Of a stretch of DNA of 27,500 nucleotides, positions 2,511-22,145 are shown piece after piece. The translations under genes and the position numbers were made by a program. The notes under the pieces were generated by a model. The model saw nothing but the letters and a program-made list of their open reading frames with translations. It made no database searches and was not told where the DNA came from. The stretch covers positions 403-27,902 of the forward strand of contig JAHBMJ010005951.1 of the NCBI GenBank assembly GCA_018398765.1, in the 5' to 3' direction. The first letter of the stretch is position 1. Every line of letters starts with the position of its first letter. This DNA comes from Chromera velia (Eukaryota; Sar; Chromeraceae).

Positions 2511-5052
2511 GAACAGAGTCCGTGAGGGTATGCGGGTCGAGGTTTCGCGGGCTCACCATTTATTTCAATACGCGTTGATATGCGTATATTCATTGGCAAC
2601 TAGATTGGCAATGCATTGGCTAGTGCATTGGTACAATAAAGGACCAGACATATATTGTAGCATATATTACATAATTACTAGCATAATTAATCTGGCCCAT
2701 TATCTCAGTAAATTTATCTGGGAATGAATGAATTTATGAATCAATGAACATTCAGGCTCCGTCCCAGCCGATACATTGTAAGTTGTATAGGGAACACAGA
2801 CATGGTGATACGGCCTAGGATGTGACCTCGATACTTTTTTCTGCAAGGTCTTTTATGATGCATACCAGGGGGTCAGATGCTTGCATGCACGCACTTTCGA
2901 TCTCTTTAATTCCTCTTACATCTCTGTCTGTCTCGATCTCTCTTTCCCACGTCTCTGTGCCTCCGTCTATCTGTACATCCACGCGCTCTTCTTCTTCAAT
3001 GAATTCGTTTGATCCTCTTCCAGCGGCTCGGCTCGATTGATGCTGCCTTAAATTTCTTCTTCTTTCTCTTCCTCACTAGCGATGCTTGCCTTTTCTTGAG
3101 AATTTCACCGCGACGGCAAGGAGATAGAAGGTGGTCGGAGGAAACGAATCAGGTTCGAGAGGACGAATGCATAGCATGACGAGAGGAAGGCTAACGAGGC
3201 CCTCTCATCCATCCAGTCAACGGCGAAGCGATTTGGACCTACCTTTCGATCGGGTCTTCTCATCTCTCTTCTCCTTTTTTCCCCCTCCTCTCTTTCCTCT
3301 GAAGACAGGCAGGCCAAAGACGGAATGGCGTGTCGATATTTTCCTTTTTTTGTCTCTTTTTCGCTCATTCATCCAATTCTTTCATGCGTGTCTGCGCGTC
3401 TTTGCGAATTCAGACATGCATGCATGCACGGTACATTCATTCATTCATTCATGCATTCAAACAGGCAGGAAGGCATTCATCGTCATCACATCACCATCCA
3501 TTGACGCACGCAGAGGTAGGTGGAACCTCTGCACTGACTGCATGAATAATACTTAAGAAAGGTACACGGGGCCGATCCCGCTCAAATTCGAGAAAGAAAA
3601 TGGTGATCGAGAGAGAGTCGTTCAAGCTCAGTTCACGATTCGTCAACGAAAAAACAAAAGTTGACTACGGGAGGGAAAGGGAAACAGATGCTATGCTCCC
3701 GCAAGCGTGTGCGTAAATGTGAGTGCAAGCAGACAGAAGGTCGGGCAGGCTCTCCCAAGCTTCTTTCTTTTGGGGCTCCCCCCCCCATCTTTTCTCCGCC
3801 CTCCCTCCCTCCCCGCTCGTTCCTCCCCCTCTTACCAGTCTGCCTCATGCCTGCCAGGTCTGTTTGACCGACACGCAAAGAAAGTGACTTCAATGCAAGA
3901 GAAGAAGAAACTCACGCAGGAACAGAAAAAAAAAAACAGAGCGACCAGCGGGACAAGAGTCCGGTCATGCAATCAAAACTTGGTTCCAAGGTTGGATCGA
4001 TGAATGAAAAAGGAAAAGGAAAGAAAATCTGTCCCACCAGACGTGACGAACTCCTCTCCTTTTGTGCCAAGAGGGAGGAGGAAAAAGGAAAGTCTGTGTT
4101 TTTGTGAGAATGTTCCATTGGTTCTAAAACCACTGACTGAATGAGAAGGATGACGGTAATCTTCCTCCTATTTCCATCAAGAGAGAGGAGGGGGGGGGTG
4201 GTTGGGTGCCAGAAAGAGCAGGAGAGAAAGGTGACTGACTACAGACGGAAAGGAATTCAAAAGTCGTCCGTTTCGATTCGATTGGGGGCAGAGGAGGAAG
4301 AGGAAGGAATAGAAGGAAGGAGGGACAAACAAAGAAAGAGGGACTGCCAGGGGGGGGAGAAGAGGGAGGGCGCAACGGAAGCAGACTGAAGGAAGGAGCA
4401 TCATGCATGCACATACAGACATCATGCATCGAGCCCCTTCTGTTCTTTTGGGCAGACATGCAGTGAATGAATTCGACAAACAAACACTCGACGCATCATC
4501 CTGTAAGTGGAGCTGCATGGAAGGAGCATCTCATTTATTTATTTTCTGATGCACTCACTGAATTTCTGTCTGCCTCCAACATTGCAGCCGCCCCCCCGTC
4601 CGACCCGAATCAAGCGAGAGCCTACATGTCTAAACCCCTGCATGCGAGCGAGCCCGCTTAATTCCTCGAGTCGAAAAGAGAATAGAAGAAAAGAAAGGAG
4701 GAAGAACAGAAGGACAGGCACTTAATGACAAAAGAAAAAGAGGAGAGGCAGCTAGGGCATGAGAGAGAAAAGAGCTGTCTGTCTTCCTTTTTTACGATCA
4801 CTCCTCCAGTCCAATGACTCTTTCTGTGTGAGAGTGGGGGAGGATCATAACCGTTCCATCCTTTCGTACAGTTCGAATTGTCTTCCAGGCAGCGCCCGGA
4901 CTCTCATGCAGACAGCTCCTTCTTCTCTTCTTGCTGCCACATGCATTTGCTTCAATTGAGAAAGCTCTATGTTTCTTTCTTTCCTTACCATTTGGATTTT
5001 CTTCTCGTCATTGTCATTTCCTCTTTTGTGTGCTCTCTCTTTCACTTCCTTC

Positions 5053-5262
5053 TTACTTTCCCTCAGCGCCCTTCGCCCTCTTCTCTTCGATGGCAGCCTG
5101 TCCTGCAGCGAGACGAGCCACGGGAACTCTGAAAGGACTGCACGAGACGTAGTGGAGACCCAGCCGGTGAAAGAACTTTACTCCCCTGGCCTCGCCTCCG
5201 TGCTCTCCGCAGATTCCGCACTTGATCCCGGGGCGGCTCTTGTTGCCCCTCTCCATTGCGAT

Positions 5263-5299
<37 letters not shown>

Positions 5300-5334
5300 T
5301 AGATAGATAGATAGACGGTCACACGGACATAGAT

Positions 5335-5369
<35 letters not shown>

Positions 5370-8300
5370 GATAGATAGATAGACGGTCACACGGACATAG
5401 ATAAGTACACACACACACACACACACACAAGCACGCACTCCAATAACAGTCGCTGGACTTCACAATGAGGACAGCAGGTGGATGATCCACCGGCTCATCA
5501 GACCAAGCCTTTCTGAATGAACGACCGAGAGAGAGACTTCATGGACATATGATTGAACGGCTCATGAACGAGTGAACAACAGCGGTCTGACCAAACATCC
5601 CAATTAAATCGACCACTTTCATCCATTGAATGTTTCTCTCACAAATATGCACCCGCTCCCCAATTCACACGTAAACACATTGATACGAAAAGGTGGGCGA
5701 GCTAAAAGAAACCAAAATCAGAGAGAAAAGCCAACCGACGCACCTTGACAAGCTCCCCGACACCTGTCTGGTCGACGGTCTGGAAGGGGTCGAAATCGAG
5801 GATCTGTTTCACCTGCCCGTCTGTGAACTCAACACCCTGCAGACCGGTAGGCAGAAAGGCGCACACGCATACAGGGAGGCAGACGAAACGGAGACCAGCC
5901 TGAGGAATTCTTGGGTACTCTACCCAGGGGTACAGAACAAAACAAGAAAGTCTCAAGAGACCGGAAGAGGAGACCGAATGGCGTGAAATTTCAAAGCAAC
6001 AAAAGGTACCAGTCTATCGGCCGAAAAGGAGTTCAGAATGAAGACAGTACAGTGCGCCCACGCAGAATTACCTCTACGAACGAGAATTAAAGAAGAGACG
6101 AACTGCAGCGATAGGACCAAAACGGAAATAAAAGTCCCAGCCACTCACTCACTCACCTGAGTGTAGACGGGAAGGAACGAGTTGGCGTCGTCTCTGGACA
6201 TTCCGAAAGTGCACTGCATGGACGCATAGACGATGAGGGAGGCAGGCAAGGACCGGCGGCACATTTTCGATCCGACGGATTTTGTGCGTTGAAATCTCAA
6301 ACAAACAAATCAACCACCGATCGAGAGAGAACCGAGTGGGACCTGGGGCATGACCAGCTCTCTCTACTTCTACGGTGGAGTGAAAGCGCGTCTCCACACA
6401 CACACACACACACACATCAAAAGAGCTCTTCCTTTCTCACTGATCAACCTTCTTGATTTCTCTTTCTTTTATTTCATTCCTCTCCTCCGCTTCCCTCAGA
6501 GTGTCTCTACTGACCGACCTGTGTGAGATCGTTGGTGCCGGCATTTATTTTGATGCATTCATTTTCATACAGAAGACTAAATGCAAACACTGACCTGTGT
6601 GAGATCGTTGGTGCCGGCATTTATTTTCATACAGAATTCTTTTTCAGGGAGCGTATAAATAAATGCAAACACGGACCTGTGTGAGATCGTTGGTGCCGAA
6701 AGAGAAGTACTCAGCACTCTCGGCCAGCTGCTCTGCCTGGAGGGCGCCTCTGGGCACTTCAATCATTGTGCCTGCAGGGAGTCAGACAGGCAAATAGATA
6801 GATTCGCAGGAGTTGTTTGTTTTAATTCAACACACTGAGTAAAGAGGAGAAGTATGGATACTTGTTTGAGTGTGTAGGACAACCCAATGTGCGTCGTCTC
6901 TCCAAACACGGGAGGGCGCATAAGCGTTCCGAATCAAACGCACTCTTTCCTTCTTATTTTCGCGTTTACGGAAACGCCTGACGGATCCTCAAGACCCCTC
7001 TTTTGAAGGAAAGACGATGGATGCAACCGCAGACAGATACTTACAAGTGTTGCACTGCCCCCTCAAAAAGTACAACAGAGCGAAGAAAGAAAAAAGCCAC
7101 CGACTGACCGATCTTGTGAGGCACCTCGGCTCCCATCTTCTCGAAGACTCTCTTGGTTGTCTGCTGGATCAATCCCTTCTGGTGGTCCAGTTCCTTCTTG
7201 TCACCGACCTGCAGGGGTTTGGAGTCGTGCGGGAGAGGGACAGAGAGAGACGAGGGCATGGGCATCAAAGGAAAAACAAAGACAGAAAGGAGGAAGGAAG
7301 GAAGGAAGGAAGCAGGGAAGAAAGAACGAAAGAAAGAATGAAAGAAAGAAAGGAGACGGAGGAGATTTGCCAAGAAGACCAGAGTGGGTACCTCCACGCA
7401 TGCAAAAGAGACTCTGCTGACACAAACAGAGGCCGCGCGACTGGAAGGAATCAGAGAGAGAAACTAAGCGAAGAGAGGAAAAAAAGCGAATGAAGGAAAG
7501 ACCAACGGACGGAGGGACTGACCAATGGAACCATCACCTCAGGGAACACCTGAATGCCCTCCTGCTGGGCCTCCACTGCTGCCTGGAAGATGGCCTCGAC
7601 CTGCAGGCAGGCAGGCAGGCAGGCAGACAACAAGATTGTTCATTCATTTATTCGTGTGTGTTTGTTTGTTGTTTGAATTCCTTTCTATCCAGTAGTCCTC
7701 TTGGGGTTGAAGGGTCGATTGGTTCATTGATTCATTGGTTGAAGAAATGAAAGGGAGAATCAATGAGACAGAGGGGAAAAAATAAAAGCAGAAAAAATGA
7801 ATATGCAGGGAGGGACGGACGGAGGGAGGGAGGGACACTGGGAGTCAGTCCTTGGAGAGGTTTTGCGGAATGATGGAAAGAGATGGGAGAGGAATGAAGG
7901 TTGCATTTTGACAAGAAGGTTCTGTAGATGATGGGGGCATTCTGATTGATAGATGATACAGGCAACCCGTTGGGTGCCTCTCCTCCTCTTTGGCATCCAT
8001 TTTTCTTTTGCAGGAGCAGGTATTTGGCCTCCTGACAGAAAAAGTAATGTACAAACAAACAAAAATACGAACAGACCTACCTACCTGCATTTCTGTGAGG
8101 TAGGGGTAGCAGATACCGAGACGGCACCCTCTGTGTCCCAGCATCGGGTTGGCCTCTCGGAGAGAATCTGCAAGCAAACATTCAAGGCATGCAAGCACTC
8201 GTTTTGTTCATCTGTGGCATGGCTTTTTTGTGGGAGCTTCCGTGCTCGATGTGCAGCTCAGCTGACTCTCTATTCATGGGACTTCACGCGTTTCATCTCA

Positions 8301-10014
8301 TTGCTTTTTCGCCGTGAAAGATACGCATTTCTGTTTGTTCTTCTTCGTCGCTCTAGCCTGCTTTTCTCTGTCTCCCTCCAACTTCCTTCTCTCTCTGCAC
8401 CTGTCACACTCATTTTGCACACTATCCGTATCTTGAATTATTCATTCACGTACATCTTTCTTTCTTTCTTTCTTTCTTTTTTTCTTTTTTCTTTCTTTCT
8501 TTCTTTCTTTCTTTTTTTTTTCTTCCTTCCTTCCTTCCTTCCTTCTTTTACGTTCCATTCCCCTTCTTTTCCCTTCCCTCACTTCCCGAACTGCTGCCAC
8601 TGCACGCTTTCTATGGCTGCATTGCTGACCTGCGACTGCCTCCAATTCGTCAGTGGAGACGCCCATCTCTGCCCTGAGCTCCTCGAACTCTCTCTTCGAG
8701 TGGGGCAAGAACTCATGCAGAGGGGGGTCCAGGAGACGGATCTGCAGCCATCCTTACACAAACATAAAGAGAGAGAGAAAAGGATGCAACCCGGCCAGAA
8801 GCAAAACATAACATGATCTGTTGGTCTGCTGTGTGAATAAGTAATGGTCTTCCCCTATGACTCAAATTTCACAAAGACAGACAGGCGACCGAAGAAGACA
8901 AGGTCGTCCTTCATGTGACGACTTTAAAGGGTCATGAAAAACTCAAGAGAACACTCTTGATTCAACCTTGCACGCTGACTGACTGACTGACTGACTGACT
9001 TAGTGACTGACTGACTGACTGACTGACGGACGGACGTTGACGGGAAGTCCGTCCATGATCTTGAAGATCGCCTTGAAGTCTGCCTTCTGGAAGGGGAGCA
9101 GCTTCGCGACAGCCTCTCTGCGGTCCTCCTCTGCGGTGCTGCAGGAGAATCAAGAGAAATCGGTTGAACATGCACAAGGACCAGATGTGCAGACGATACA
9201 CAGACAGGGGAGGTGCATCAATTGTGCATGCATCTGGGTGATCATTTCTTTTTTTTGCTTGAGACAACTTTTTCGGGCAGCGGTTTGGAAGGTAGAGAAG
9301 GAAGGGAGAAGAGGCATGTCTTGCTTTCACTTCTTCGTTTCGTCCTTTGCTCAGTCATCCGGATGTTTCTCCAGTTCTACTTTCCCTTCACTTTTCTGGA
9401 CGACGGAATCTCAACACCTTTCTTTGCAAAGGACGGAAGAAGTGATTTCGTCTCAATGAACAGTCAACAGACCAACCTGAAGAGCATCTTTCGGACTTCA
9501 AGGAGTCTCTTCTTCTCCATGAACATGTGCTCCGTCCGAACGAGGCCGATGCCCTGAGCTCCGAATGCACGAGCGACCTGGGTGTCGTCCGGGGTGTCGG
9601 CGTTGGTTCGCACCTGCAGGATTGGAGTGATCGAACAGAGGGAGGGAGTGAGAACGACCGCCGAGAGAGAGGTCTTTTTTCGGGTAAAAAGAGGAGTGGG
9701 TGTGTACATGATTTTCTTTTGCTGCTCTGTCTTCTCGACAGGGTAAACGGGGGAAATCCCGTCCTTTGAGACGAGACGAGACCGACTGAGAGAGAGCTAC
9801 ATAACGAGAGCGAGAAAGAGAAACAGACTGACTGACATCCAGTCTTCTGTGTTTGTCCGCCAAGTCCATCAGAGTTGCGTACTGCTGGTAGGTCTCGGAC
9901 TCCTCTGGGGACATCGACTTGTCCATCAGAACCTGACAGAAGGCAACCAAGAAGTAGGAAAGGAGGAGAGGAATTATGGCAATGGAGGGCAAGGTCTTGT
10001 TAGTTCCCACCGAC

Positions 10015-10045
<31 letters not shown>

Positions 10046-10433
10046 AGGAAAGAAAGAAAGAAAGGCATGACAGAGAGACAGATACATAGAGAGGGATGGA
10101 AGAGAAGTCAGTTGAAGCTTGGGAGGGAAAGATGAAGCCTGGGAAACAGAGAGCGAGACAGACAGTGCGCAAAGATGGAGCAGAGAAGCGGTACCGGAAT
10201 GCCCCCGGTGCACATACAGACAGACCCAATTGCATGCCAACACGCACACAGCCAAACAAACAAAAGAGACTCACCAACCTGAAGGATCTCAGAGGGTCTT
10301 GTCCGAAGGGCATCGATGAAGACCTCGCCTGCAGGTTCGTTCAGCCAGCCACCATGCATTCAAACAAGCATGCATGAGAGGTGAAGGGAGACAATGACAG
10401 AGACAGATCATCTGTACACACAGACACACACAT

Positions 10434-10471
<38 letters not shown>

Positions 10472-12571
10472 CACAGACGCAGAGAGACCCGTGTAGTCTC
10501 AGGACAGGACGCGGAACGAAAATCAGTTTTGAGAGCCCCCCCCCCCAATGCACAGCACCAACCTGTGGAGCCGTCGATCGAGATCGGGTCGCCTGTCTTC
10601 AGGGTCTGTCCTGCAACCTGCAGGCAGGCACCAACAAAGGAAGGAAGAAAGGAAGGGGGGGGGGGCAGAGAAGAAACATATGGGTGGAAAGACGTGGAAG
10701 AACGGACATGCAAAAAGAAGAGAACCTCATTCTTTGTACCAACCAAGTCTTTCCACAGCGTTCTCGTGAAGCATCTTTCCATGCAGTCACGCACGCAACC
10801 GAAAGAAAGAAAGAAAGAAAGAAAGACAGAGCGCACCCACCCACCCACCCACCCCCCCACCTTTGCAGTTCCAGTCTCCTCATCGAAGGTGATCTCTGCG
10901 CACCCGCACACGCAGGGCTTCCCAAGGCCTCTGGCAACAACGGCAGCGTGAGAGGTGGCGCCTCCTCTCTGAGTCAGAATGCCCTGAGCAGCCACCATTC
11001 CTGCATGCATGGAAAAGTGTTTCATGCATGGAAAAGTGTTTCATTTCATACACACACACACACACACACACACACTTGTTTTTCGATGCTTTACCGAGGC
11101 TGGTGGTGTTTGCTTTGGAGAAAGAGCCCATGACCCTGGCCCGGCCAAAGGAAGAGGATGAATGAGAGGACAGAAAAGGAGAACCAGAAGAAACGAACCC
11201 AAGTGCCGACTGACTGACTGACGCACGAACACACAGACGACAGACCTGCGAAGTCCTCCGGGCTCGTCTCCTCTCTCAGGAGGACACACTTGATTCCCTT
11301 CTTTGCGAATTCAATGGCCTCCTTGGAGGTCATCGCAACCACACCAGAGGCAGCTCCGGGACCTGCCATCCCATGCAAAGCAATGCAACAGACAGACAGA
11401 CAGCCAATCTATATCGTCTTTTCTTTCCTTTTTCTCTTTCTTTCAGAAGACAGACAGACTATATGTAGAAGACAGACAGACAGACAGACAGAATCAATTA
11501 ATTCACAGTGAGTGAACCACAAGAGAGGGCATGAATGCATTTGCGTGTCTTTCTGTCTGTGTCAACGGAAACGAAGCGCGGCCTGGAAAAGGAGAGGAAG
11601 AGCGGGAGAGAGGAGCTGCACGCGTATGCTAAATTCTTCTAGAAGAAAGTCGCCTGGTCTTTTTTCACGGCTTCTCTCCTGTCACAAAGTTCAAGCGATT
11701 GCAAACCGAACGGGCCATCCTTTTATTGCGTCCAATCTCTCTAACATCATTTTGGCAGAGGCAGAGTCACAACCTAAACACTTACTCAGGTGCATGCAAA
11801 CATATTGGATGTACACGATGTGTTTCTGACTGACCTGCGTTGAGTCCTCTAGCGACCAGTTTGCCTTCCTTCTCGGCTTGTCTCTTGTCTGCACAGACAG
11901 GCATTTTTTTTTTTTTTTGCATGAAAGTAAATGCATGCACGGCTTGTCTCTTGTCTGCGCAGACAGGCAAACCCAAAAGAGATTCCCCAAATACAGGTAG
12001 GTTGGAGGAAAAGATGATACTTATAAGTTTGATTCGGCAGAAGGTCAGACTAAAAGAGAGAGCAGGAACTCATGGAGCTGAGAATGCTGGGAGAGAGTGA
12101 GGAAGAGAGAAAGCAAAATAGGGGGAGTGGCAAATCGCAAGGAAGTGGCAGGTATCTTCTATTGTTATCAAATGTTTCCTCTTCTCTTCACTTTCGAACA
12201 CAGAAAGACGGGAGGCAGGCAGGCAGAGAGACAGACTATAGAGAGACAGGCAGAGAGACAGACGGACCAGAATCGGCAAAGATGGGGAAGAGCAGCTGTG
12301 TGAGCTGAGAAGGTTCCACCCTCATCAGTGCCTCCTCTTCGTCGATGAGACCCTCCTTCAACATATCGTAAGCGACCTGCAGGCCAACCAAAGTACAGGC
12401 ACAAACAGAAGAAGAGTGTCTTATCATTTCAGCTGATGGCCTACTTATATTCCTTGCTTTCTTTCTACGCACTTGAAGAGGGAGGTACGTCATCAGAAAT
12501 CAGACAGTCAGGATAGAGGCAACGAAAAGACTGTAGCTTGAGAGCTACCCCTTTCCCTCCCTCTCTTTCTT

Positions 12572-12625
<54 letters not shown>

Positions 12626-13885
12626 TATGTCACACTTCTGCGTAAAAGCAAAGGAGGCAGTCTGCTCTCTGTCTTTGCTGACCTTGACGGCAGCCACTCC
12701 AGTCCTCTTGCCTGCCCGCGTCTGGAGCATGAAGAGACGGCCTTCGTCGATAGTGAACTCAACATCCTGCAGGCAGGCAGGCAGGCAGACAGACAAGGAG
12801 GTAGGCAGGTGGGCAGACGACCATCCATCCATCCATCCATCCATCCATCCATCCGTCCGTCCGTCAGTCAGTGAGTCAGTCAGTCAGTCAGTCAGTCAGT
12901 CAGTGGGTGGCTGAACGAGTCATCTTTCACATACATGTTTGGTACACAAAGTACCAGGCACGTATTTCATTCGTTTTCCTTCACACAGCCATGCACGCAA
13001 CAGACTGTCCCGCACACACCCACCCACACACACACACACACTCAGAAAGAGAGAGAGAGAGAGAGAGACCGACCTGCATGTCCTGGAAGTGAGTCTCGAG
13101 TGTCTGTCCGACTTCCTCCAGTTGATTGTACACAGAGGGCATCACCTCCTCCAGAGAGGGGAGGGTGGATCCTGTCTTTTCGGCCTGTGCCTTGTTCACT
13201 GGCTGGGGCGTTCTGATGCCTGCCACAACGTCCTCTCCCTGGGCATTCAAGAGGAACTCTCCGTAGAACCTCCTCTCTCCTGCACACACACACTCACTCA
13301 ATTAGCCAGTTCAACATCCTATGGCATACATACTGGGTCTCACTGCGTTCCTCTTTCGCATGCGAGACGCATCGACCAACCACCCGACTGACCAGTAGCG
13401 GGATCACGAGTGAAGCCGACGCCTGTTCCTGAGTTGTCGCCCTTGTTGCCGAAGACCATCGCCATCACAACGACCGCCGTGCCCCAGTCATCCTTCACGC
13501 ACGCACACAAATGCACACATAATAAGAAAAGGAATTAAAGGAAATTTTCCGGAAACACGCACGCTCAACACAGAAAGAAAAGCAAAGAAAACTTTCTGGA
13601 AGCCTTTACACAGGCAGTCAGGGTTGCAAAGCGCAAGACCAAAAGACCCACAAGACCAAAGGGGAGAACAACAGAGGAGAAAGAGAAGATGATTGAGAGC
13701 GAAATAATCAAAAGGGATTCAAATCCGGTTTATCTATTACTTCGCATGCAAGCTACCCGCTGACTGAAGAGACTACCAAACTGACTGACAGGATATCCGT
13801 GATAGCGTCTGTACGCGATTGCCTTCTCGCCATCCCAGGATTTGAACACTGCGAGGATTGCCTTCTCCATCTGCTCACGAGGATT

Positions 13886-13926
<41 letters not shown>

Positions 13927-16311
13927 GATACGTGGCCAGAAGGGGATTCAGAAAACAGGAAAATGGAAACACGCACGCACATACAATCAGCCACAAAACA
14001 CAAAGGTCCAGGAAGAGACGCTGGTGAGAAAGCTGTTGCTTTCTCCGTTTCTGTGGTGATACATACATTCGCGCACGAAAGGAAACTTTTAAGAAATCTG
14101 TACACGTCAGTCAGTGAGTGAGTGAGTGAGTGAGTGAGTGAGTCTATTTACCTGCCTGCCCACCGACCTACCTGAGGAAAGGGCTCTCCGGTTGCCTCCT
14201 GATAGACTTCTTTGTACTCAGCCACGAGTTCCTGGAGGGCTGCTGCGTCGAGGTCAACATCGAACTCGACGCCCTTGTCCGTTTTCTTCTGGGCAAGTTT
14301 CTGCAAACAGACAGACACAACAGAGAGACAGGCAGGCAGATTGGTGTGTTCGTTTGATGGCTTGTGACTGTTTTACGATCATGTCTTGGTTCCTTTTGAG
14401 GAGCGGACAGAGTGACACAAAAAAAGAGACAGGACCACAACAGACAACAGACAAAGCTCTCTCTCTGACAGAGTGACTGGAAACCAAACGACAAACAAAC
14501 AACAAAGAGAACAACCGGCAGACAGACACACTTTTACATTTTCATGCCAACAGCCAGCCAAACAAACAGTCACACCCAAAGACACACCTGCTCAAACTTG
14601 AGGAGTCCCATATCCATCACCACATTGCCGTACATCTGGATAAAACGCCTGCATGAAAGAAACAAAAAAGGAAACAAGCAAGCAATGAAATGAATGACTG
14701 AAAGACGTAAAAGAAGGGGAGGGAGGGAGGAAAGAGAGCCGGAACACATCTTCTTGTTTGATCTGGAAAGAGACAGACACAGAGCACCCATCCCGTGAGA
14801 AGAGGAGCGGCAACGGGCCACAGGGCCAGAGACAGACAGACAGACAGAGATGCGGAGTCAGGATATTAGACTGCCACACAATCCAACTCGCTTGCCCCCC
14901 AACAGACCTGTATGCGTCCCATGCCGTTCTCTCGTTGTTAATTTTCTTCCCGAAACCAACAACGGTCTCGTCATTCAGTCCCAAGTTCAGCACCGTCTCC
15001 ATCATGCCGGGCATCGAGATTCTGGACAGAGAGAGTTAGAGGAAGGAAGGCATCGAGATTCTGGACAGAGAGGGTTAGAGGAAGGAAGGCATCGAGATTC
15101 TGGACAGAGAGAGTTAGAGGAAGGAAGGCATCGAGATTCTGGACAGAGAGAGTTAGAGGAAGGAAGGCATCGAGATTCTGGACAGAGAGGGTTAGAGGAA
15201 GGAAGGCATCGAGATTCTGGACAGAGAGAGTTAGAGGAAGGAAGGCATCGAGATTCTGGACAGAGAGGGTTAGAGGAAGGAAGGCATCGAGATTCTGGAC
15301 AGAGAGAGTTAGAGGAAGGAAGGCATCGAGATTCTGGACAGAGAGAGTTAGAGGAAGGAAGGGAGGGAGGGGATGGGTTGAAATGGCTTAAACGGACAAC
15401 AGAGCCGATCCAAGAACACAACGAAGGAAAGTGAATGGACTGAAAAGGAAGGACTATCTAAAAGAGCACCAAGTGTGCTCTGTAAATGAAGGTCAAATAG
15501 CTGACGGATGGAGAGACGGCCAGGCACTCTGAAGAGGACCAAGATACCCCTCCTGTCTCTGACCCTTTTTTTTCGAACTTTTCAGGACGAGAGGACCGGT
15601 TGCTGTCCGGTTCGACAGTAGGGGAAGGAACAGAGGCAGCTCGAAAACGTACCAATAGTTGAACGAGAATTCTTGCACGAAATGGCCGGGAAGGTTTGAG
15701 AAAAAGAGTCTGACCTTGCTCCCGAGCGCACCGCAACAAGAAGGGGGTTCTCGGGATCGCCCAACTTTGCATCCATCATTTTCTCCAACACCGCAATGGC
15801 CTGGTCGACCTGAGCGTCCATGGACTTGGGAACCTCCTTTTTCTCACGGAAACGCACACAGGCTTCTGCATTTCAACAGAGGAAGAAAAGAAGGAAGGCG
15901 ATGAGGTCAGGTCAGTAAAACAACACTTGTCTCGTCCTACACAAGAGTCAACCGGAAGAGACACACCGAAACAAGCCGACCTGTGGTTATGACAAAGCCA
16001 GGCGATACCGGCAGTCCCATTGCAGTCATTTCTGCAACACCCTTTCCCTTCCCTCCGAGTAGGTTTCTGTCCAGGGGAGGAGCTGGATGGTCCTTTCCGA
16101 AGCTGTACACCCATTTTGTCTGGCCATTGGCTTCCGTTGCGACTGCGGAGGGTTTCTCAAGCACTTTCTGCATCGACAGAGCTCCTCTGCGAGAGAAGCT
16201 GGAAAGTCGTTTTTGTGCATTCTTACGAACCAGTTCTGAGGGCTGGTGACGAAGTACGAACCCCCAACTCAGCGCGAATAAGCTGAGGAAGAGAGACAAG
16301 AAAGGTCTCAT
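5053..16311 (-). CDS. PPDK: Pyruvate, phosphate dikinase, 26 exons, probable organelle leader
   Basis: Interconverts pyruvate + ATP + phosphate with PEP + AMP + diphosphate. Exons on the minus strand (high..low): 16311-15981, 15865-15715, 15021-14908, 14648-14588, 14300-14172, 13885-13790, 13492-13393, 13279-13074, 12766-12683, 12376-12268, 11888-11835, 11362-11246, 11000-10861, 10617-10563, 10328-10279, 9932-9837, 9613-9477, 9138-9036, 8741-8630, 8167-8085, 7600-7523, 7208-7109, 6771-6677, 6213-6157, 5836-5744, 5262-5053. All introns are GT-AG and the phases agree, giving 986 residues. Motifs seen: N-terminal nucleotide-binding [50 protein letters not shown], the phosphohistidine loop [14 protein letters not shown] (catalytic His about 535, codon 10950-10948; the neighbouring Thr that is regulatory in plants is kept), [20 protein letters not shown], and the PEP-side CGEHGG (Cys about 935). 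The leader (residues 1-70) starts with a hydrophobic stretch, [14 protein letters not shown], followed by F and a basic Ser/Arg-rich part, as in bipartite signals of red-derived complex plastids. Plastid location is inference. Confidence 0.95.
5263..5430. repeat. Composite (AC)n plus (GATA)n repeat, PPDK intron 25
   Basis: Two copies of a block made of (AC)n, (GATA)n and the unique link GACGGTCACACGGACATAG (near 5315 and 5384), followed by a third AC run. On the gene strand the first run is (TG)n ending in GCAG, the acceptor of PPDK exon 26. The repeat has expanded as a compound unit and not only as a dinucleotide. Confidence 0.9.
6516..6697 (-). repeat. Triplicated exon 23/donor junction with two palindromic inserts
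   Basis: A 24-nt block is present identically at 6516-6539, 6592-6615 and 6674-6697. The last copy is the real one: 21 nt of PPDK exon 23 (coding GTNDLTQ) plus the GTC of the donor. Between copies lie two inserts. The one at 6541-6584 runs GCATTTA...TAAATGC. The one at 6617-6666 has perfect 10-bp inverted ends, GCATTTATTT and AAATAAATGC. Both contain TTCATACAGAA and both are followed by CAAACAC before the next copy. The extra copies lie inside intron 23 and carry intact-looking donor sites. Confidence 0.9.
7600..7625 (-). repeat. (CTGC)n run forming the exon 21 acceptor
   Basis: On the gene strand this is a CTGC/CCTG tetranucleotide run ending in the CAG that precedes PPDK exon 21. Similar runs end introns 8 (12767-12784) and 13 (10618-10627) of PPDK and intron 4 of the PDI gene (about 19346-19359). 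Confidence 0.85.
8457..8546. repeat. (CTTT)n/(CTTC)n microsatellite, PPDK intron 19
   Basis: A long CTTT run interrupted by T tracts is followed by a CTTC run. It lies inside intron 19 of the minus-strand PPDK gene and accounts for the poly-Phe/Ser and poly-Lys open frames there. Confidence 0.9.
8975..9035 (-). repeat. (CAGT)n run starting at the exon 18 donor
   Basis: On the gene strand PPDK exon 18 is followed by GTCCGTCCGTCAGTCAGT..., a tetranucleotide run of more than ten units that contains the 5' splice site itself. One unit is interrupted (GTCACTAAGTCA). Confidence 0.9.
10018..10064. repeat. (GAAA)n microsatellite, PPDK intron 15
   Basis: A GAAA tetranucleotide run with one GAAG variant, inside intron 15. 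Confidence 0.9.
10424..10472. repeat. (AC)n(AG)n microsatellite, PPDK intron 14
   Basis: Adjacent AC and AG dinucleotide runs lie in intron 14. On the gene strand this reads (CT)n(GT)n, a compound form also seen in intron 8 and in the PDI gene. A short C9 tract lies nearby at about 10538-10546. Confidence 0.85.
11003..11074. repeat. 19-bp direct duplication and (AC)n, PPDK intron 12
   Basis: TCATGCATGGAAAAGTGTT is repeated back to back just upstream (in gene sense) of the exon 13 acceptor and is followed by an AC run at about 11050-11074. Confidence 0.85.
11874..11969 (-). repeat. Duplicated exon 11 acceptor junction with palindromic insert
   Basis: A 30-nt block at 11874-11903 recurs at 11940-11969 with a single difference. 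The first copy is the real junction: 15 nt of intron ending in CAG plus 15 nt of PPDK exon 11 (coding DKRQA). The second lies in intron 10. The insert between them, 11901-11934, begins GCATTT, has a long T tract, and ends GTAAATGC, so its ends are inverted. The copy retains a CAG acceptor-like site. Confidence 0.88.
12574..12630. repeat. (CT)n(GT)n microsatellite, PPDK intron 9
   Basis: Compound dinucleotide run inside intron 9 of the PPDK gene, plainly visible. It accounts for the Cys/Val-rich open frames in this stretch. Confidence 0.9.
12821..12905. repeat. (CCAT)n(CCGT)n(CAGT)n tract, PPDK intron 8
   Basis: Successive tetranucleotide runs that grade into each other by single-base steps (CCAT to CCGT to CAGT), suggesting local turnover of one microsatellite. 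Confidence 0.9.
13021..13070. repeat. (AC)n...(GA)n microsatellite at the exon 8 donor side
   Basis: AC and GA runs immediately downstream (in gene sense) of PPDK exon 8. The open frames through it are artefacts. Confidence 0.85.
13886..13923 (-). repeat. (TG)n run forming the exon 6 acceptor
   Basis: On the gene strand about 16 TG units end in TGCAG and directly precede PPDK exon 6. The run replaces an ordinary pyrimidine tract. Confidence 0.9.
14106..14143. repeat. (GAGT)n microsatellite, PPDK intron 5
   Basis: A GTCA run passing into a GAGT run inside intron 5 of the PPDK gene. Confidence 0.85.
15011..15361 (-). repeat. 39-bp tandem array repeating the exon 3 acceptor nine times
   Basis: Nine near-identical 39-bp units start at 15011 and recur every 39 bp. 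In gene sense each unit holds CTCTGTCCAG followed by AATCTCGATGCC, which is the acceptor and first bases of PPDK exon 3. Only the unit nearest the exon continues into [16 protein letters not shown]. Units differ by one A/G. As 39 is a multiple of three, each copy preserves the frame, but every unit carries an in-frame TAA after ISMPSFL, so using an upstream acceptor would truncate the enzyme. Confidence 0.95.
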
Positions 16312-17011
16312 TCTGATTTTTAGATTTCTACAGACAACGGAAAGAAACGCCTTTTTAGCTTCAGCTTGCTGGAATTCTCCAGTTTTTGCGGGTATTTCGT
16401 TTCTTAGTTAGTTAGTTCAAGAAGTGTAGACGGGATAACACCAATCCTTGGCACCTGACAAAGTTGTCAGAGCCCAATATTCTGGTTTATTCGTTTCTTT
16501 TGATGCACCCTCGGTTGTGCCATACTCGCGCCACGTCACGTATCATCTGCATGCATGCATGGAAGGCACTTGCCAGGGGGGGGATGGGGGGGGCATATGT
16601 CGACCACACGTACAAAAAGGGGGTCGCCAGGCCGCGGCGGCCCCCCCCGCCGCCTCGCAAGCTGGGAGAAAAGCCCTATAGCTCAAAAATCCTCAAAATC
16701 GATGCATGCATGTGCGTTGAGATCGATTCTCGCATGCAGTCCGGCCGAGCCATGCCGAGCCGTCTCCACATTTTCGTTTTCGTGTGAGATCGCGTGAGAT
16801 CTTTCAAGATCCACTCAAAAAGAGATTTCGAAGTCAGAGCGTCTGCCTCTGGATGACGCAAACTGGAATTCCAAGACGAACACTGGTCTGTGGTGAAATC
16901 TGGCAAGCTGCCAAGAAAAGTGCATATTGAGCTGGTTTTTTCCACTCGTCAGTTTTGTTTTTTCCGTCTTCATTTTCCTTCAGCAGCCAGGCGTTCGAGT
17001 TGATCGAAGCA
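16312..17011. promoter_or_regulatory. Divergent PPDK/PDI promoter region
   Basis: The two genes are head to head, with 700 bp between the PPDK start codon (16311) and the PDI start codon (17012), so both promoters must lie here or overlap the genes. The interval has three GCATGC-type clusters (about 16549-16560, 16702-16711, 16732-16738), long G and C runs (16575-16592, 16618-16662), and a repeated GTTAGTTAGTT at about 16406. I see no convincing TATA box. TGCATGC is a known motif in apicomplexan promoters; a role here is inference, and the same word occurs at several other places in the window. Confidence 0.5.
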
Positions 17012-19259
17012 ATGCATCTTCTGCCGTCTCTGTTCTTTGTTGGGTGTCTGGCTTTCTTCTTGGCCTCTCCCTCACCAGGAAGGGCAGAGGAAGATGAGGC
17101 AGTCGTTACTCTGACAGAATCAAACTTCGACGACTTCATCAAAGAAAACCCAGAGGCCCTCGTGGAGTTCTATGCGCCTTGGTAGGTAGCTGGGGTTTGT
17201 CCGAGTAGAGTCTGTCACGCAAGAAGAAAATCGGGAGGATGATGAATATTCAAATGCCTCCCCTCTCGTGCAGGTGCGGTCACTGCAAAAAGCTGGCTCC
17301 GGAGTATGAAAAGGCTGCAAAGGCTTTGAAAGGGAAAGTTCCTCTCGGAAAGGTGAGGCAGATTGGCAGAGTTTCCACCTTCTCTTTTCTTTGTGAGTGA
17401 AGGTGGTCATTTTACTTTTCCTCTTGTGTCATCTGTATTTCAGTCTGACCTTCTCTCCCTTTCCGAAGCTGTACATTCGATTTTCTTTGACTGGATGTAC
17501 TTATTTCAGTCTGACTTTCTCTCCCTTTCCGAAGCTGTGCATTCGATTTTCTTTGACTGGATGTACTTATTTCAGTCTGGCGAAGGAGAGCAGGAAGAGT
17601 GAGTAGGCACAAGAGGATGGTGGGATTTCAGGATTAGGATTGGGATATGCTGCGCAGCCAAGCTGTGTCAGAACGACCCTGTCTTGTTTCTTTTGCTTTC
17701 TACAGTGGGCTTCTCTTCTCTTCTCTTCTCTTTCGGTGATCCCTGCTCTTTAACCACCCGAAATGTTTAATTGAACGCTTTCTTTCTTTCTGACAGAGGA
17801 GGATCACCAGCCCATGCACGGAACTTGGAAGATCCTACTCGGACAAACGACATGGAAGACTTGTCTTTTGTTTTTTTGTGTAGAAACGTGGAACAGCTTT
17901 GCATTTCTGAAAAAGCTGGTTTGACGTGTTAAACCATCATTAAACGCACTTCCCTTCCCTCCGTGCAGGTCGATGCGACGGTAGAGAAGGACTTGGCCTC
18001 GAAGTTTAACGTCAGAGGGTATCCCACCCTGAAGTTCTTCAAGAAGGGAAAGGAGCAGGAGTACACGGGAGGAAGGAGCGAAGAGACGATCATCCAATGG
18101 ATCGAGACCCACACAGGCCCAGCAGTCTCTGTGGTGGACAAAGCCACCGAAGTGGTCAGTCAGTCAGTGCATGCATTTACCTTCATACAGAATACAGTAA
18201 ATGCATGTTGTGGACAAAGCCACCGAAGTGGTCAGTCAGTCAGTCAGGCAGGCAGGCAGGCAGTCGAAGCGCTATTCAGGGTTTCCTTCCCTTCCTGCCC
18301 TGTTCGCGAAGAAGTGTTTCTGTTCTTTCTATCTACAGGATCGTTCTCTGCTTCTCTCGGTTCCTCTGTGTGCGTGTGTGTGCCTCTCCGCTTCTCTCGG
18401 TTCCTCTGTGTGCGTGTGTGTGCCTCTCCGCTTCTCTCGGTTCGTCTGTGTGCGTGTGTGTGCCTCTAGGACTGTCCGTTCGTCAAAACAATAACACATC
18501 AGACGGTCTTCCTCCCCACCTGCTTTGCAACTGCAGCTTTTTTTCACTGTTGAATTCGCTCTACTGCATTTCTTCACTTCATCTGTCTCTGCATCTCTGT
18601 CGATTTTTTTTTTCATCTGCTTTCTCTGTCGTGTCCATGCAGAGTGACGAGAAGCCTACGGTGTTTGTTGTGAAGACAAAGGATGCGGAGACAAAACTCT
18701 ACAAAGACTTCGAGGCGGCTGCAGATGTCAACAGAGAGTCGGGGCTGTTCCAAGCAATCCTAGGGGACAAGTCGGAGTCTCTGTCTGTATTCCGAAAAGA
18801 CGAAGGGGAGACAGTCTGGAAGGAATCCGAGTATGCGAGTCTGGATGATTTCGTCTATCAGGAGGCTTTTCCTTTGTTTGGAAAGATCGATGGCAGCAAT
18901 CACAGGCGTTATGTGAACAGGAAAAACTACGCAGGAGGACTCTTTTGGCTCTGTTTGTCTCCTGATGAGTACAAAAAATTCGGGGGGGCGGCAAGGGAAG
19001 CGGCCAAGAACTTCAAGTCCGTTTTTGTCAGGGTTCTTTGACACACTTCTTCTTCATTTTCTTTTAATGGATGCGTTCCGTGCTTTTTGCAGGTCTTTCT
19101 TTCCTTCGTTTCTTTTTGATTTTGTGTTCTTCAGTATTTGTTGTGTCCTCTCTTTTGCCTTCCTTTGTTCTGTGGGTCGGCTCTGTCTACTATGTGCTTT
19201 TCTGTTCCTGAGTCTCGCTCTCGCTCCGTCTCGCTCTCTCGCACGCACGCTCACACATA

Positions 19260-19295
<36 letters not shown>

Positions 19296-20752
19296 GCGTC
19301 CATTTGTCTCTCCCTCTTAAAGAAAACCACACACTGATTGACTGCGTGCCTGCCTGCAGGGGAGACCTCTCTTTTGTCTGGCTGAATCTGGACGAGCTGA
19401 AGTCCCACGCGGAGACGGCCTTCGGTCTCACCGAATTCCCCGCCTACGTCCTTGAGCAGGGCAAAGCCAGGTGGGTAGGTTTTTTTTTTTTTTAGGTAGG
19501 CAGGTGGGTAGGTAGGTGGGTGGGTAAGTAGATCTGCCAGTCGCAAGGCAGGCAGAGAACAAAGTTTATGTGCATGCAACGTTGGGTAGCTGTATGAGTT
19601 TGGCTCAACCATCACATGTACCTCCCTCGTATTGGAAGGAAGGAAGGAACCAGAAATCGATCTGCTTGCGGGGTGAGGCGAGTATCGTAGTACCGTCCAG
19701 ACAGTACCTCGATGCAGCAAATTCGCACGTCTTGTCAAATGAAAAAAGAATATTCATCAATCAGTCCTCCAGGACAACGCTAAGTGAGTGAGTGAGTGAG
19801 TTGCCAATTTCGAATCTCTAATCTCTTTCTTCGTTCAATGAGACAGCCAGCCAGCACAGTCTCCCTTGGTACTTGTTGTGCTCCGTGAAAAAAATATGTT
19901 TTCCGCTGTGCTGCCTTTTTTTCTTCCGTTTCGATTCACATAGGAGGCTCATTTTTCTGCTGTGCCGAAAGAGAAAGGAAGGGAGAAAGAGCAGGAATGC
20001 CTGTGCTATGCGCACATGCTCCTGTTCGTCTTTCTTGATCCTTTCTTCTTCTCCTTCTTTTTCCTTTTTCTTCTCTTTCCTTCTTCTTCTTCCTTCTTCT
20101 TCTTCCTCCTCCTCCTCCTCCTCCTCCTTCTTCTTCTTCTTCTTCTTCTTCTTCGTCTTCTTCGTCTTCTTCTTCTTCTTCTTCTTCTTCTTCTTCTTCT
20201 CGTTGCCCTTTCAGATATGTTCTGGAGTCTGGGGGCAAGGACCCTTCTGCAGCCTCTCTGAAGGGCTTCTTGGAGGACGTGAAGGCGGGGAAGATCAAGA
20301 GGACACTCAAGTCGGAGGAAACACCTGAGTCAAACGACGCACCTGTCAAGGTACGTGCATTCATTCTTTCAGAAAGAGAATTTTGTACGAAAATGATCTG
20401 AAAATGAATGGAAACACCTGAGTCAAACGACGTGCCTGTCAAGGTACGCTCGCTGAGGGAGGGTTCTTCAGGATAGACACCCAAGAAAGCTCTAGATCTA
20501 GTGGTGGAGGCAATTGGGGTCTTGTATCGCCGCACCATTTGCTTGCACAATAATTTGTCAGTGAGAAATGAAGAAAACAGACGGGAACGCGCCAACTAGC
20601 GACGGTGGGCAGGAAGAGAAACGGAGATCTTGACGACACTGAACGAAATAAAAGGAAAATGCGGAGGAAGACCGTAAAAGAAAACCGAAGGTAGAAGAAA
20701 GCAAGTTTTCTGTTTGTGCATGTGTATCTGCTTGTCAATGTATGTGTGGACG

Positions 20753-20830
<78 letters not shown>

Positions 20831-21292
20831 TGCAGGTTGTGACAGCGAACACCTTCGACTCAATCCTTTTCGAATCCGGAAAGGACGTGTTCTTCGAGAT
20901 CTACGCACCTTGGTGGGTCGGTCTGTCGGGCTCTTGGTGAGATGCTCTGGTGGGACGTCCGTTGCCTGTCTCTCTGTTTTTTTGTCTTTCTCGCAGTTTC
21001 AGGGTCTCTCGTCGTTTCTCTTCTCGGTCATGCGTCATCGGTTTCCGTTTCACTGATGGAGGTGTGAATACCACGTTTGGAGCCTGGAGGGAAGTCTGAA
21101 ATCAACAAAACAAAAGACGCAAATTGCATGCCATCTGCAAAACAAAAACAGCCCCATCAACGGCCGGCATAAATTGGTCTCGTGTACGCTGATGACTTGA
21201 CCTGGATTTCAGTGATGTCGCTTTCTCTCTTCGCATTTCGAAGCTGTTTGGGGCCACACCCCGTAAGGCAGTAGAAGTCCTCCCTCCGTTCA

Positions 21293-21356
<64 letters not shown>

Positions 21357-22145
21357 CGTGCGTGCGTGTGGTGCAGGTGCGGTCACTGCAAAAAGCTGGA
21401 GCCGATCTACACGGAGTTCGCAGAGAAGATGGAAAAGGATCTCCCCTCGCTTCTTGTCAGTCAGTCAGTCAGTCAGCTAGGAGAGAGAGCCAGGAAGGAG
21501 AGAATTTGGTCGAGCAAGAGTGGGAAAAAAGGGACAGGCTTCGTATGCCTTTTATCACTTGTCTCTCGTGAGCATCTACCAAGCCAAGCTACCACCACCG
21601 CCTCCCCGCAAACGCATACACAAAAACAGACATCTCTCTCTCACACGCACAAAGCACAGAGCCACCTTAGCGACTCCTCTTCCTACACCCTCGCTCACTT
21701 TCTTTCCTTCCTTCCTCTCTCTCTCTCCCTCTCCCCTGATTAACGATTGGTTCGATCAATCGATCGATCGCGTTTTTTTCCCTCTCGAGGTCAGCCGAGA
21801 CTGCCTGCCACGATTTCTTGTGCGCAACTCTGTTACCAGTCCTGTACACCTTGATGCCACCCTACCATGATCTGTCCTCCTTCTGCCCCATGCACCCTCA
21901 TGCAGGTGACCAAAATGGACGGGACCCAAAACGACGTCCCGTACGCAGAATTCGACTTTCGGGGCTTCCCGACGATTTACTATCTGAAGGCAGACGACGT
22001 AAAGAAGGCGAAGGAGGCAGGCAAGCCGGTGCAGCCCGCGAAGTATCAGGGTGGCAGGGCAGTGGATGATCTTGTCAAGTACGCAAAGGAAAACGTCTCC
22101 CCGTCTCTCAAGAAGGAAGAGAAACCATCTCATGAGGAACTCTAA
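17012..22145 (+). CDS. PDI: Protein disulfide isomerase, 9 exons, ER lumen
   Basis: Catalyses disulfide formation and exchange in secretory proteins in the ER lumen. Exons: 17012-17181, 17274-17352, 17969-18154, 18643-19016, 19360-19470, 20215-20350, 20836-20912, 21377-21455, 21906-22145. All introns are GT-AG, phases agree, total 1452 nt, 483 residues, normal for the family. Seen: signal peptide [18 protein letters not shown]; thioredoxin domain a with APWCGHCKK (Cys58, Cys61) and cis-proline GYPT (Pro102); less conserved b and b' domains over about residues 145-345; an acidic linker [10 protein letters not shown]; domain a' with APWCGHCKK (Cys379, Cys382) and GFPT (Pro426); acidic/basic tail ending HEEL, a KDEL-type retention signal. 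The exon 4 donor (AA followed by GTCCGT) was chosen because it alone restores the frame into [12 protein letters not shown]. Exons 2 and 8 are both 79 nt and sit at matching places in domains a and a'. Confidence 0.96.
17438..17580 (+). repeat. 66-bp tandem duplication, PDI intron 2
   Basis: Two full copies of a 66-bp unit beginning TTTCAGTCTGA (17438 and 17504), then a third start at 17570. Each unit start looks like a pyrimidine tract plus CAG acceptor (TATTTCAG). They are not used in my gene model, where exon 3 begins at 17969. Confidence 0.9.
18134..18244 (+). repeat. Duplicated exon 3/donor junction with palindromic insert
   Basis: A 35-nt block at 18134-18168 recurs identically at 18210-18244. 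The first copy is the last 21 nt of PDI exon 3 (coding VDKATEV) plus 14 nt of intron starting GTCAGTCAG; the second is inside intron 3. The insert between them has perfect 11-bp inverted ends (CATGCATTTAC at 18170-18180, GTAAATGCATG at 18197-18207) and contains TTCATACAGAA. The second donor would shift the frame, because the donors are 76 nt apart. Confidence 0.93.
18351..18470 (+). repeat. 40-bp tandem repeat, three copies, PDI intron 3
   Basis: Units starting CTTCTCTCGGTTC at 18351, 18391 and 18431 with a GTGTGCGTGTGTGTGCC tail. Wholly intronic. Confidence 0.92.
19243..19293 (+). repeat. (AC)n microsatellite, PDI intron 4
   Basis: An ACGC/ACAC-rich run near the 3' end of intron 4. The CTGCCTGCAG immediately before exon 5 is a short CTGC run serving as acceptor. 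Confidence 0.85.
20038..20202 (+). repeat. (CTT)n/(CTC)n pyrimidine tract, PDI intron 5
   Basis: Over 150 bases of almost pure C/T, mainly CTT trinucleotides, ending just before the acceptor TTTCAG of exon 6. It acts as an exaggerated polypyrimidine tract and explains the poly-Leu, poly-Ser, poly-Phe and poly-Glu open frames in this stretch. Confidence 0.92.
20317..20448 (+). repeat. Duplicated exon 6/donor junction with palindromic insert
   Basis: A 39-nt block at 20317-20355 recurs at 20410-20448 with two differences. The first copy is 34 nt of PDI exon 6 (coding the [11 protein letters not shown] linker) plus donor GTACG; the second lies in intron 6. The insert has inverted ends, CATTCATTCTTTCAGA (20358-20373) against TCTGAAAATGAATG (20397-20410). 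Using the second donor would add 93 nt, in frame but with a TGA inside, so it would truncate the protein. Confidence 0.92.
20757..20835 (+). repeat. (CT)n(GT)n(GCGT)n run forming the exon 7 acceptor
   Basis: A compound microsatellite, CT then GT then GCGT units, ending in GTGCAG directly before PDI exon 7. A very similar run precedes exon 8. Confidence 0.92.
21297..21376 (+). repeat. (CT)n(GT)n(GCGT)n run forming the exon 8 acceptor
   Basis: The same order of units as before exon 7 (CT, GT, GCGT, then GTGCAG). Two introns of one gene therefore share a composite 3' end. Confidence 0.92.

Follow-up and report, generated by a model that had tools for sequence, protein, structure and literature searches.

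The DNA analysed here, hereafter the window, is a 27,500-nucleotide stretch of the Chromera velia genome (C4022:403-27902 in the 177.8-Mb assembly of 4040 contigs in which all genome searches were run). It carries a gene for pyruvate phosphate dikinase (PPDK) and a gene for protein disulfide-isomerase (PDI), whose introns (window 5000-22000) follow an uncommon splice consensus, with CAG/GTCAGTC at the donor and TGCAG at the acceptor (30 donors and 32 acceptors). An earlier reading of the letters alone (the sequence-only reading) had pointed to four exon/intron junctions in these two genes at which a block spanning the splice site is duplicated, the copies flanking a small insert with inverted ends. 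Duplicated blocks were indeed present at all four junctions, around five inserts (Table 1). In the gene models, the splice site inside the block is an acceptor at site 2 and a donor at the other three sites, and the inserts sit within introns of about 380-490 nt, every copy lying on one side of its intron. When the window was scanned for direct repeats without regard to genes, low-complexity repeats being filtered out, these pairs were recovered, and apart from them just a 35-bp satellite at 1-1750.

The first of the four sites is an array of two elements, E1 and E2, which differ in their centres and have the tail AAACAC in common. Read on the minus strand, its block at 6516..6540 comprises the exon end ...GTNDLTQ followed by the start of the donor. 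For sites 3 and 4, the working donor must be the one in the first copy in gene order, because the second donors break the frame: that of site 3 lies 76 nt downstream and shifts the frame, while extension to that of site 4 meets a TGA (both read from the sequence). The duplicated exon ends of sites 1 and 4 were compared with homologues. In the alignments, GTNDLTQ occurs once in the best-matching PPDK chain, and PESNDGPVK, from site 4, once in PDIA3. A single copy of the block is thus the likely ancestral state at these two sites and, as the block is single-copy in the homologues, the duplication would have arisen together with the insertion or later.

Table 1. Genes and parts of the four insertion sites (window positions; "model" is the family model described in the text)
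Feature	Position	Strand	Remarks
PPDK gene	5182..16311	-	many exons; dynamic-programming model, small spurious exons included, ends approximate
Site 1, host block copy, window-left	6516..6540		in gene order, the copy most distant from the upstream exon; direct-repeat scan
Site 1, insert E1	6541..6591		GCATTTA...TAAATGC at 6541-6584 plus 7-nt tail; model E 0.2, outside training set
Site 1, host block, middle copy	6592..6616		sequence and direct-repeat scan
Site 1, insert E2	6617..6673		6617-6666 plus 7-nt tail; model 41.5 bits, in training set
Site 1, host block copy	6674..6698		continuous with PPDK exon 6771-6677 (minus strand)
Site 2, host block copy	11874..11903		continuous with PPDK exon 11888-11835 (minus strand); acceptor TGTGCAG/ACAAGAG inside
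Site 2, insert	11904..11939		T-rich variant of the hairpin family; model match 11901-11934, E 0.07, outside training set
Site 2, host block copy 2	11940..11969		intronic; direct-repeat scan
PDI gene	17012..22145	+	nine exons, reading frame complete
Site 3, host block copy 1	18130..18168	+	PDI donor GAAGTG/GTCAGT at 18154/18155 inside
Site 3, insert	18169..18205		ends GCATTTAC...GTAAATGC; folding z -4.2; in model training set
Site 3, host block copy 2	18206..18244	+	intronic; direct-repeat scan
Site 4, host block copy 1	20317..20355	+	PDI donor CCTGTCAAG/GTACG at 20350/20351 inside
Site 4, insert	20356..20409		GCATTCATT-type end variant; model match 20361-20411, E 0.21, outside training set; folding not significant (z -1.3)
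Site 4, host block copy 2	20410..20448	+	intronic; direct-repeat scan

The inserts belong to a family that is spread through the genome. Their core, TTCATACAGAA, is exact in three of the five (at 6564, 6626 and 18182), as the sequence-only reading had reported, and has 2434 matches in the genome (1207 + 1227) against 72 (45 + 27) for the reversed control. The pattern GCATTTA-N10-40-TAAATGC, which is its own reverse complement and so gives the same count on either strand, was found at 195 places against 2 in the reversed control; within the window it occurs 3 times, and not at all in 100 shuffles. Matches to the longer end TTCATACAGAATTCTTTTTCAGGGA at up to one mismatch numbered 89, and those to GCATTTACTTTCATACAGAATTC 571, with none in either control. 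From the core count, and at the ratio of 92 core hits to 77 elements in the sample described below, we estimate that the genome has about two thousand elements with the core. Some members lack it in its exact form, such as those at window sites 2 and 4 and one at locus L038, so that core counts miss part of the family. A family model built on 20 elements, 18 from other loci and two from the window, had, at E up to 1, the five inserts as its sole matches in the window, the E-values of the three inserts outside the training set being weak (0.07, 0.2 and 0.21). Run on 157 kb of arbitrary stretches, the model gave one weak match and missed the L038 member. With the repeat-rich stretches of L040, L046 and L049 set aside, the direct-repeat pairs with an insert of less than 100 nt in this DNA were that L038 member and one 17-nt pair at L041; the window is richer in elements than these stretches. 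The proposal that the inserts are one family with inverted ends thus agrees with the core and hairpin counts and with the model, and further copies exist well beyond the two genes.

We then considered the structure of the elements, which are about 35-120 bp long, with preferred termini TGCATTTA[C/T]TTTCATACAGAATTC. Ends numbered 86 in all, of which 24 could not be scored. The boundary with host DNA fell at the TGCATTTA position in 14 of the 62 scorable ends, and the other ends were ragged, 28 having 2-23 extra letters and 20 lacking 1-18 letters. Measured against mononucleotide shuffles, hairpin folding reached a z below -2 for 29 of the 37 inserts, compared with 3 of 56 control fragments; it was not significant in the other 8 inserts. 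Among 22 elements with both arms readable, the two arms of the same copy agreed at 78.6% of positions, compared with 66.7% for arms of other copies, a difference reached by none of 10000 shuffles. Since RNAalifold on a MAFFT alignment returned no pairs, the hairpin structure was set by hand for the pair counts. On 20 sequences, the covariation score was matched by 1 of 500 shuffles and two-sided pair changes by 7 of 500, the outer positions showing C-G/U-A and A-U/G-C exchanges. Together, arm agreement and covariation indicate that the palindrome appears to be maintained as a palindrome, either because hairpins are copied or because subfamilies exist. The full perfect palindrome through GGGAGCGCTCCC was rejected as the common form, as it was found at one place in the genome within 3 mismatches. 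The hairpin arms bear polypyrimidine-CAG strings, as read from the sequences. An Rfam scan of the window at gathering scores gave no match.

The host DNA around the elements was analysed on 92 core hits from the window and loci L001-L080, merged into 77 elements, all of which were scored. These loci are mostly the earliest by contig order and hence a non-random sample, and one element, C19:46844/46905, was probably counted twice because its two arms are 61 nt apart. The flanks repeated each other in 65 of the 77 elements (gapped local alignment, score 15), against 10.8% of 1500 random positions drawn from the window and L031-L050, where tandem repeats may be the cause of the hits. Flanking repeats, first seen at four junctions, occur at most of the elements examined. 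After merging of arrays, the 65 duplications represent 45 independent sites. Ungapped repeats, which could be placed in 48 of the 65, had a median length of 38 nt (10-90% range 20-54) and a median identity of 96%, on which many copies may be young. Over the 43 sites left after array repeats were dropped, lengths ran from 15 to 61 nt, plus one value of 120 nt from an array. The sequence-only reading had called the repeats very long for a target-site duplication, and the median agrees with it: the duplication is neither short nor of a constant length in the family, unlike that of DNA transposons with terminal inverted repeats and of miniature inverted-repeat transposable elements (MITEs). The host edges showed no sequence motif (at most 0.12 bit per position over 86 edges). 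Direct repeats of variable length without a target motif are the pattern associated with staggered breaks in Daphnia. Sharing of TGCA was rejected as a rule of target choice: 5 of 86 host edges start with TGCA against a background of 1.4%, an excess too small to explain the sites. Open-reading-frame continuity across the reconstructed empty sites was the same as in the control.

Some sites had been amplified further. Two or more merged elements were present at 11 of the 45 sites (one being the probable C19 double count), and arrays of constant spacing were found at C135 (nine x 64 bp), C124 (six x 102 bp), C3293 (5 x 89 bp) and C3817 (5 x 81 bp). Among the 100 listed places of the GCATTTACTTTCATACAGAATTC search, 19 fall in six same-strand arrays, which include those at C3293 and C3817. 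At L031:7801-8250 a 64-bp unit is repeated in at least 7 copies and ends in GCATACTGAAAGTAAA, which resembles a decayed element arm; it is perhaps an old array of block and element. The window genes also contain plain tandem duplications without any insert, with units of 19-66 nt. In the PPDK gene, a 39-bp unit that runs from the end of an intron through its acceptor CAG into the start of the next exon is present in about nine copies at 15012-15370, with no palindromic insert; PDI introns carry duplications at 17436-17567 (66 bp x 2) and 18350-18467 (40 bp x 3). A background prone to breaks or slippage is therefore real in these genes. A PPDK intron has, at 5271-5406, a 68-bp duplication of CA and GATA microsatellites around GACGGTCACACGGACAT, and the satellite at the start of the window, of the GCAGGCAAAGAGGCCGAAATTCGGAAGGCAATCAG type and in more than 40 copies, lies a few kb off the end of this gene.

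We next asked how often the duplicated blocks cover an exon/intron junction. The exon caller was trained on PPDK and PDI and finds 23 of the 24 PPDK exons of its own training gene, with zero calls in reversed sequence at threshold 15; it is noisier on the other loci, with 149 calls against 44 in the reversed sequence. Sites picked by motif alone were converted to reconstructed empty sites, and the duplicated interval was slid at random to obtain the expectation. At threshold 15, a called junction lay in 15 of the 45 duplications against 4.35 expected. Outside the window the count was 13 of 43 against 4.03 expected, a value reached in none of 5000 shuffles. For these 43 duplications, threshold 12 gave 14 (p 0.0002) and threshold 20 gave 8 (p 0.0026). 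These counts take whichever repeat copy has the better exon score; the first copy only, at threshold 15, gave 11 of 43 against 3.6 expected. When 4 nt were trimmed off each edge, 11 (first copy) or 12 (second copy) of the 43 kept their junction. An earlier splice-site scan with a narrow matrix, now superseded by the exon caller, had given 14 of 45 against 12.9% of 1208 control windows, about 2.4-fold. Duplications lying fully inside a called exon were depleted at one threshold only (1 of 45 against 4.4, p 0.04), the two other thresholds giving 3 against 5.2 (p 0.20) and 1 against 3.3 (p 0.13).

The preference for exon edges is thus statistical, an enrichment of about 3 times and not a rule. 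The sequence-only reading had suggested a junction-targeting element: the enrichment holds for sites outside the window, and junctions are one target among others, for at threshold 15 the caller, which overlooks some exons, placed no junction in 30 of the 45 duplications. It had also cautioned that the junction bias might be an effect of detection. As the sites were chosen by motif and not by junction, and were still enriched, that effect does not account for the bias; a smaller one possibly remains, in that half-exonic blocks stay recognisable for longer than all-intronic ones. The 12 elements without a clear repeat are, in our judgement, too few to cancel the junction excess. The preference may be due to an open bubble, to chromatin or to selection against copies in exons, for example.

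Tiny mobile hairpins are found in organelle genomes, as in the GC clusters of yeast mitochondria and other short palindromes of organelles; we know of no long host duplication made by these. No open-licence paper was found whose title or abstract opening describes the hairpin family reported here. The sections compared of papers on nuclear systems give short direct repeats: 3-9 bp for introners (Gozashti et al. 2022, PMC9860276), 3-5 nt for those of Amoebophrya (Farhat et al. 2021, PMC7789003), 8-10 bp in 45 of 53 cases for Foldback/Tm1 (PMC3169594), and 4-30 bp near the borders in a survey of 213 introns (PMC11782384). Daphnia neointrons share with the adjacent exon repeats of 4-12 bp that vary in length and are ascribed to the repair of staggered double-strand breaks (PMC4202315). 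From these sections, introners resemble the Chromera elements in being short and non-autonomous, in having direct repeats at their edges, in their association with exon/intron boundaries and, for many families, in their inverted ends or hairpins. They differ in the length of the repeats, with a median of 38 nt here, and in that an introner is the intron, whereas the hairpin inserts sit beside one edge of an existing intron or elsewhere. The likeness to Daphnia neointrons lies in variable repeats of the kind ascribed to staggered-break repair; those sections name no common insert family, whereas one palindromic family with repeats of 15-61 nt is present in Chromera, and by our reading this family identity and the preferred ends depart from the Daphnia type, in which the insert has no family. 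MITEs and Foldback/Tm1 share inverted termini, internal length variation and, in the MITE-like group, the lack of coding capacity, but their target duplications, as described there, are of 8-10 bp, and the hairpin inserts are much smaller and ragged-ended.

Longer relatives of the family were sought among opposed core pairs. Four such pairs 2-5 kb apart showed no sign of a long element, their interiors not having been examined for genes. The pair at C5 was rejected as a long element, being two separate short elements, each with its own repeats; of the members of the C57 and C27 pairs, some have their own repeats and some fall below the score cut. Opposed exact element ends (TGCATTTACTTTCATACAGAATTC) also occur at C1427:8292-8983 (0.7 kb) and C1386:18099-20965 (2.9 kb), which are possible longer relatives.

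The preferred termini and the shared family speak for a mobile unit, while the ragged ends, the lack of a host motif and the fourfold spread of lengths speak against a transposase with a fixed stagger. An explanation covering both is that the inserts are a non-autonomous palindromic mobile mini-element joined into long staggered breaks, fill-in of which copies 15-60 nt of host DNA; we put the chances of this at about even. The break would come from one nick in each strand, the two lying 15-60 nt apart and having no sequence specificity. A free copy of the element, perhaps a hairpin-forming DNA, would join it with somewhat imprecise ends, and filling in of both overhangs would leave the long direct repeats. 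The break or the joining would be favoured near exon edges. Selection may remove insertions that fall entirely in an exon, so that the element and a spare block remain in the intron with the splice site duplicated, and later unequal exchange between the repeats would generate the arrays of block and element. The geometry of the break, the form of the donor and the source of the enzyme are what we infer here from the products. A bolder version, which we regard as possible and tentative, is that these are mobile hairpins of a new class. When such a hairpin integrates, 15-60 nt of the host would open, perhaps as a melted or R-loop-like bubble at an exon edge, and the bubble would be duplicated in full; insertion at a donor would then yield a cassette of acceptor, exon end and donor from which a new exon could form.

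Several observations weigh against insertion into long staggered breaks. No clear direct repeat was seen at 12 of the 77 elements. No empty allele or paralogous empty site was found among hits of at least 70 nt in the fetched loci, so that insertion is deduced from homology and structure. Three of five pair measures do not exceed shuffles (55, 319 and 412 of 500), and the covariation could be the mark of several palindromic subfamilies. No autonomous element or enzyme was identified. Finally, preferred ends suit a transposase better than free capture and ragged ends suit capture better than a transposase, and the data settle neither.

Other processes would account for part of these data. Movement of a MITE by a DNA transposase that joins ends at loosely spaced positions on the two target strands could yield variable duplications of 15-60 nt, and the inverted termini, the preferred outer TGCATTTA and the large copy number are as it predicts. 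The duplications of described families are short and near-constant in the papers cited above, the element ends are often ragged, and no autonomous copy was found among the four opposed pairs, which leaves this doubtful. The sequence-only reading had offered a repair-driven duplication process instead. Such a general process of short tandem duplication, by slippage or break repair, with the palindromes as immobile triggers or fillers, fits the ragged ends, the featureless host edges and the plain duplications in the same genes, including the acceptor array of PPDK. It does not predict a single sequence family with a preferred terminus between repeats at dozens of unrelated sites, nor the near absence of comparable pairs other than the L038 member from the arbitrary stretches that are not repeat-rich; moreover, slippage on a pre-existing element should yield block-element-block-element rather than block-element-block. 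We consider it unlikely, and rank it below the mobile-element explanation.

Target-primed reverse transcription of a hairpin RNA resembling a short interspersed element (SINE) would give target duplications of variable length around a hairpin, as observed. SINEs made in this way are asymmetric, whereas both ends of the Chromera elements are the same inverted terminus and there is no 3' tail; a nick-site motif is missing as well, and we find this route quite improbable. The least credible possibility, to which we give very little weight, is that introner elements created introns that grew later. Their inverted ends, the polypyrimidine-CAG strings in their arms and the location at exon edges above chance are in line with it. 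A search for created introns, in which a donor in the first copy had to be paired with an acceptor at the matching position of the second and with some coding signal alongside, gave 2 weak candidates among the 65 duplications, and the window inserts lie inside introns of about 380-490 nt, on one side only. Creation of introns, the property for which introners had been brought into the comparison, thus shows little sign here, and as far as sequence can tell the elements are not introners in the usual sense.

A family of some two thousand copies with duplications of 15-61 nt implies a route of integration or repair that is absent from the compared sections of the cited papers, in which small elements duplicate a short, near-constant target. 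The hairpin family and its long host duplications point to an undescribed route of insertion and splice-site duplication. With a splice site often in the block and polypyrimidine-CAG strings in the arms, a single insertion could provide a second splice site. This would be a natural process that repeatedly duplicates splice sites, which bears on the lengthening of introns, on alternative splice sites and on the origin of cassette exons, and also on whether the repair of staggered breaks can carry a selfish element.

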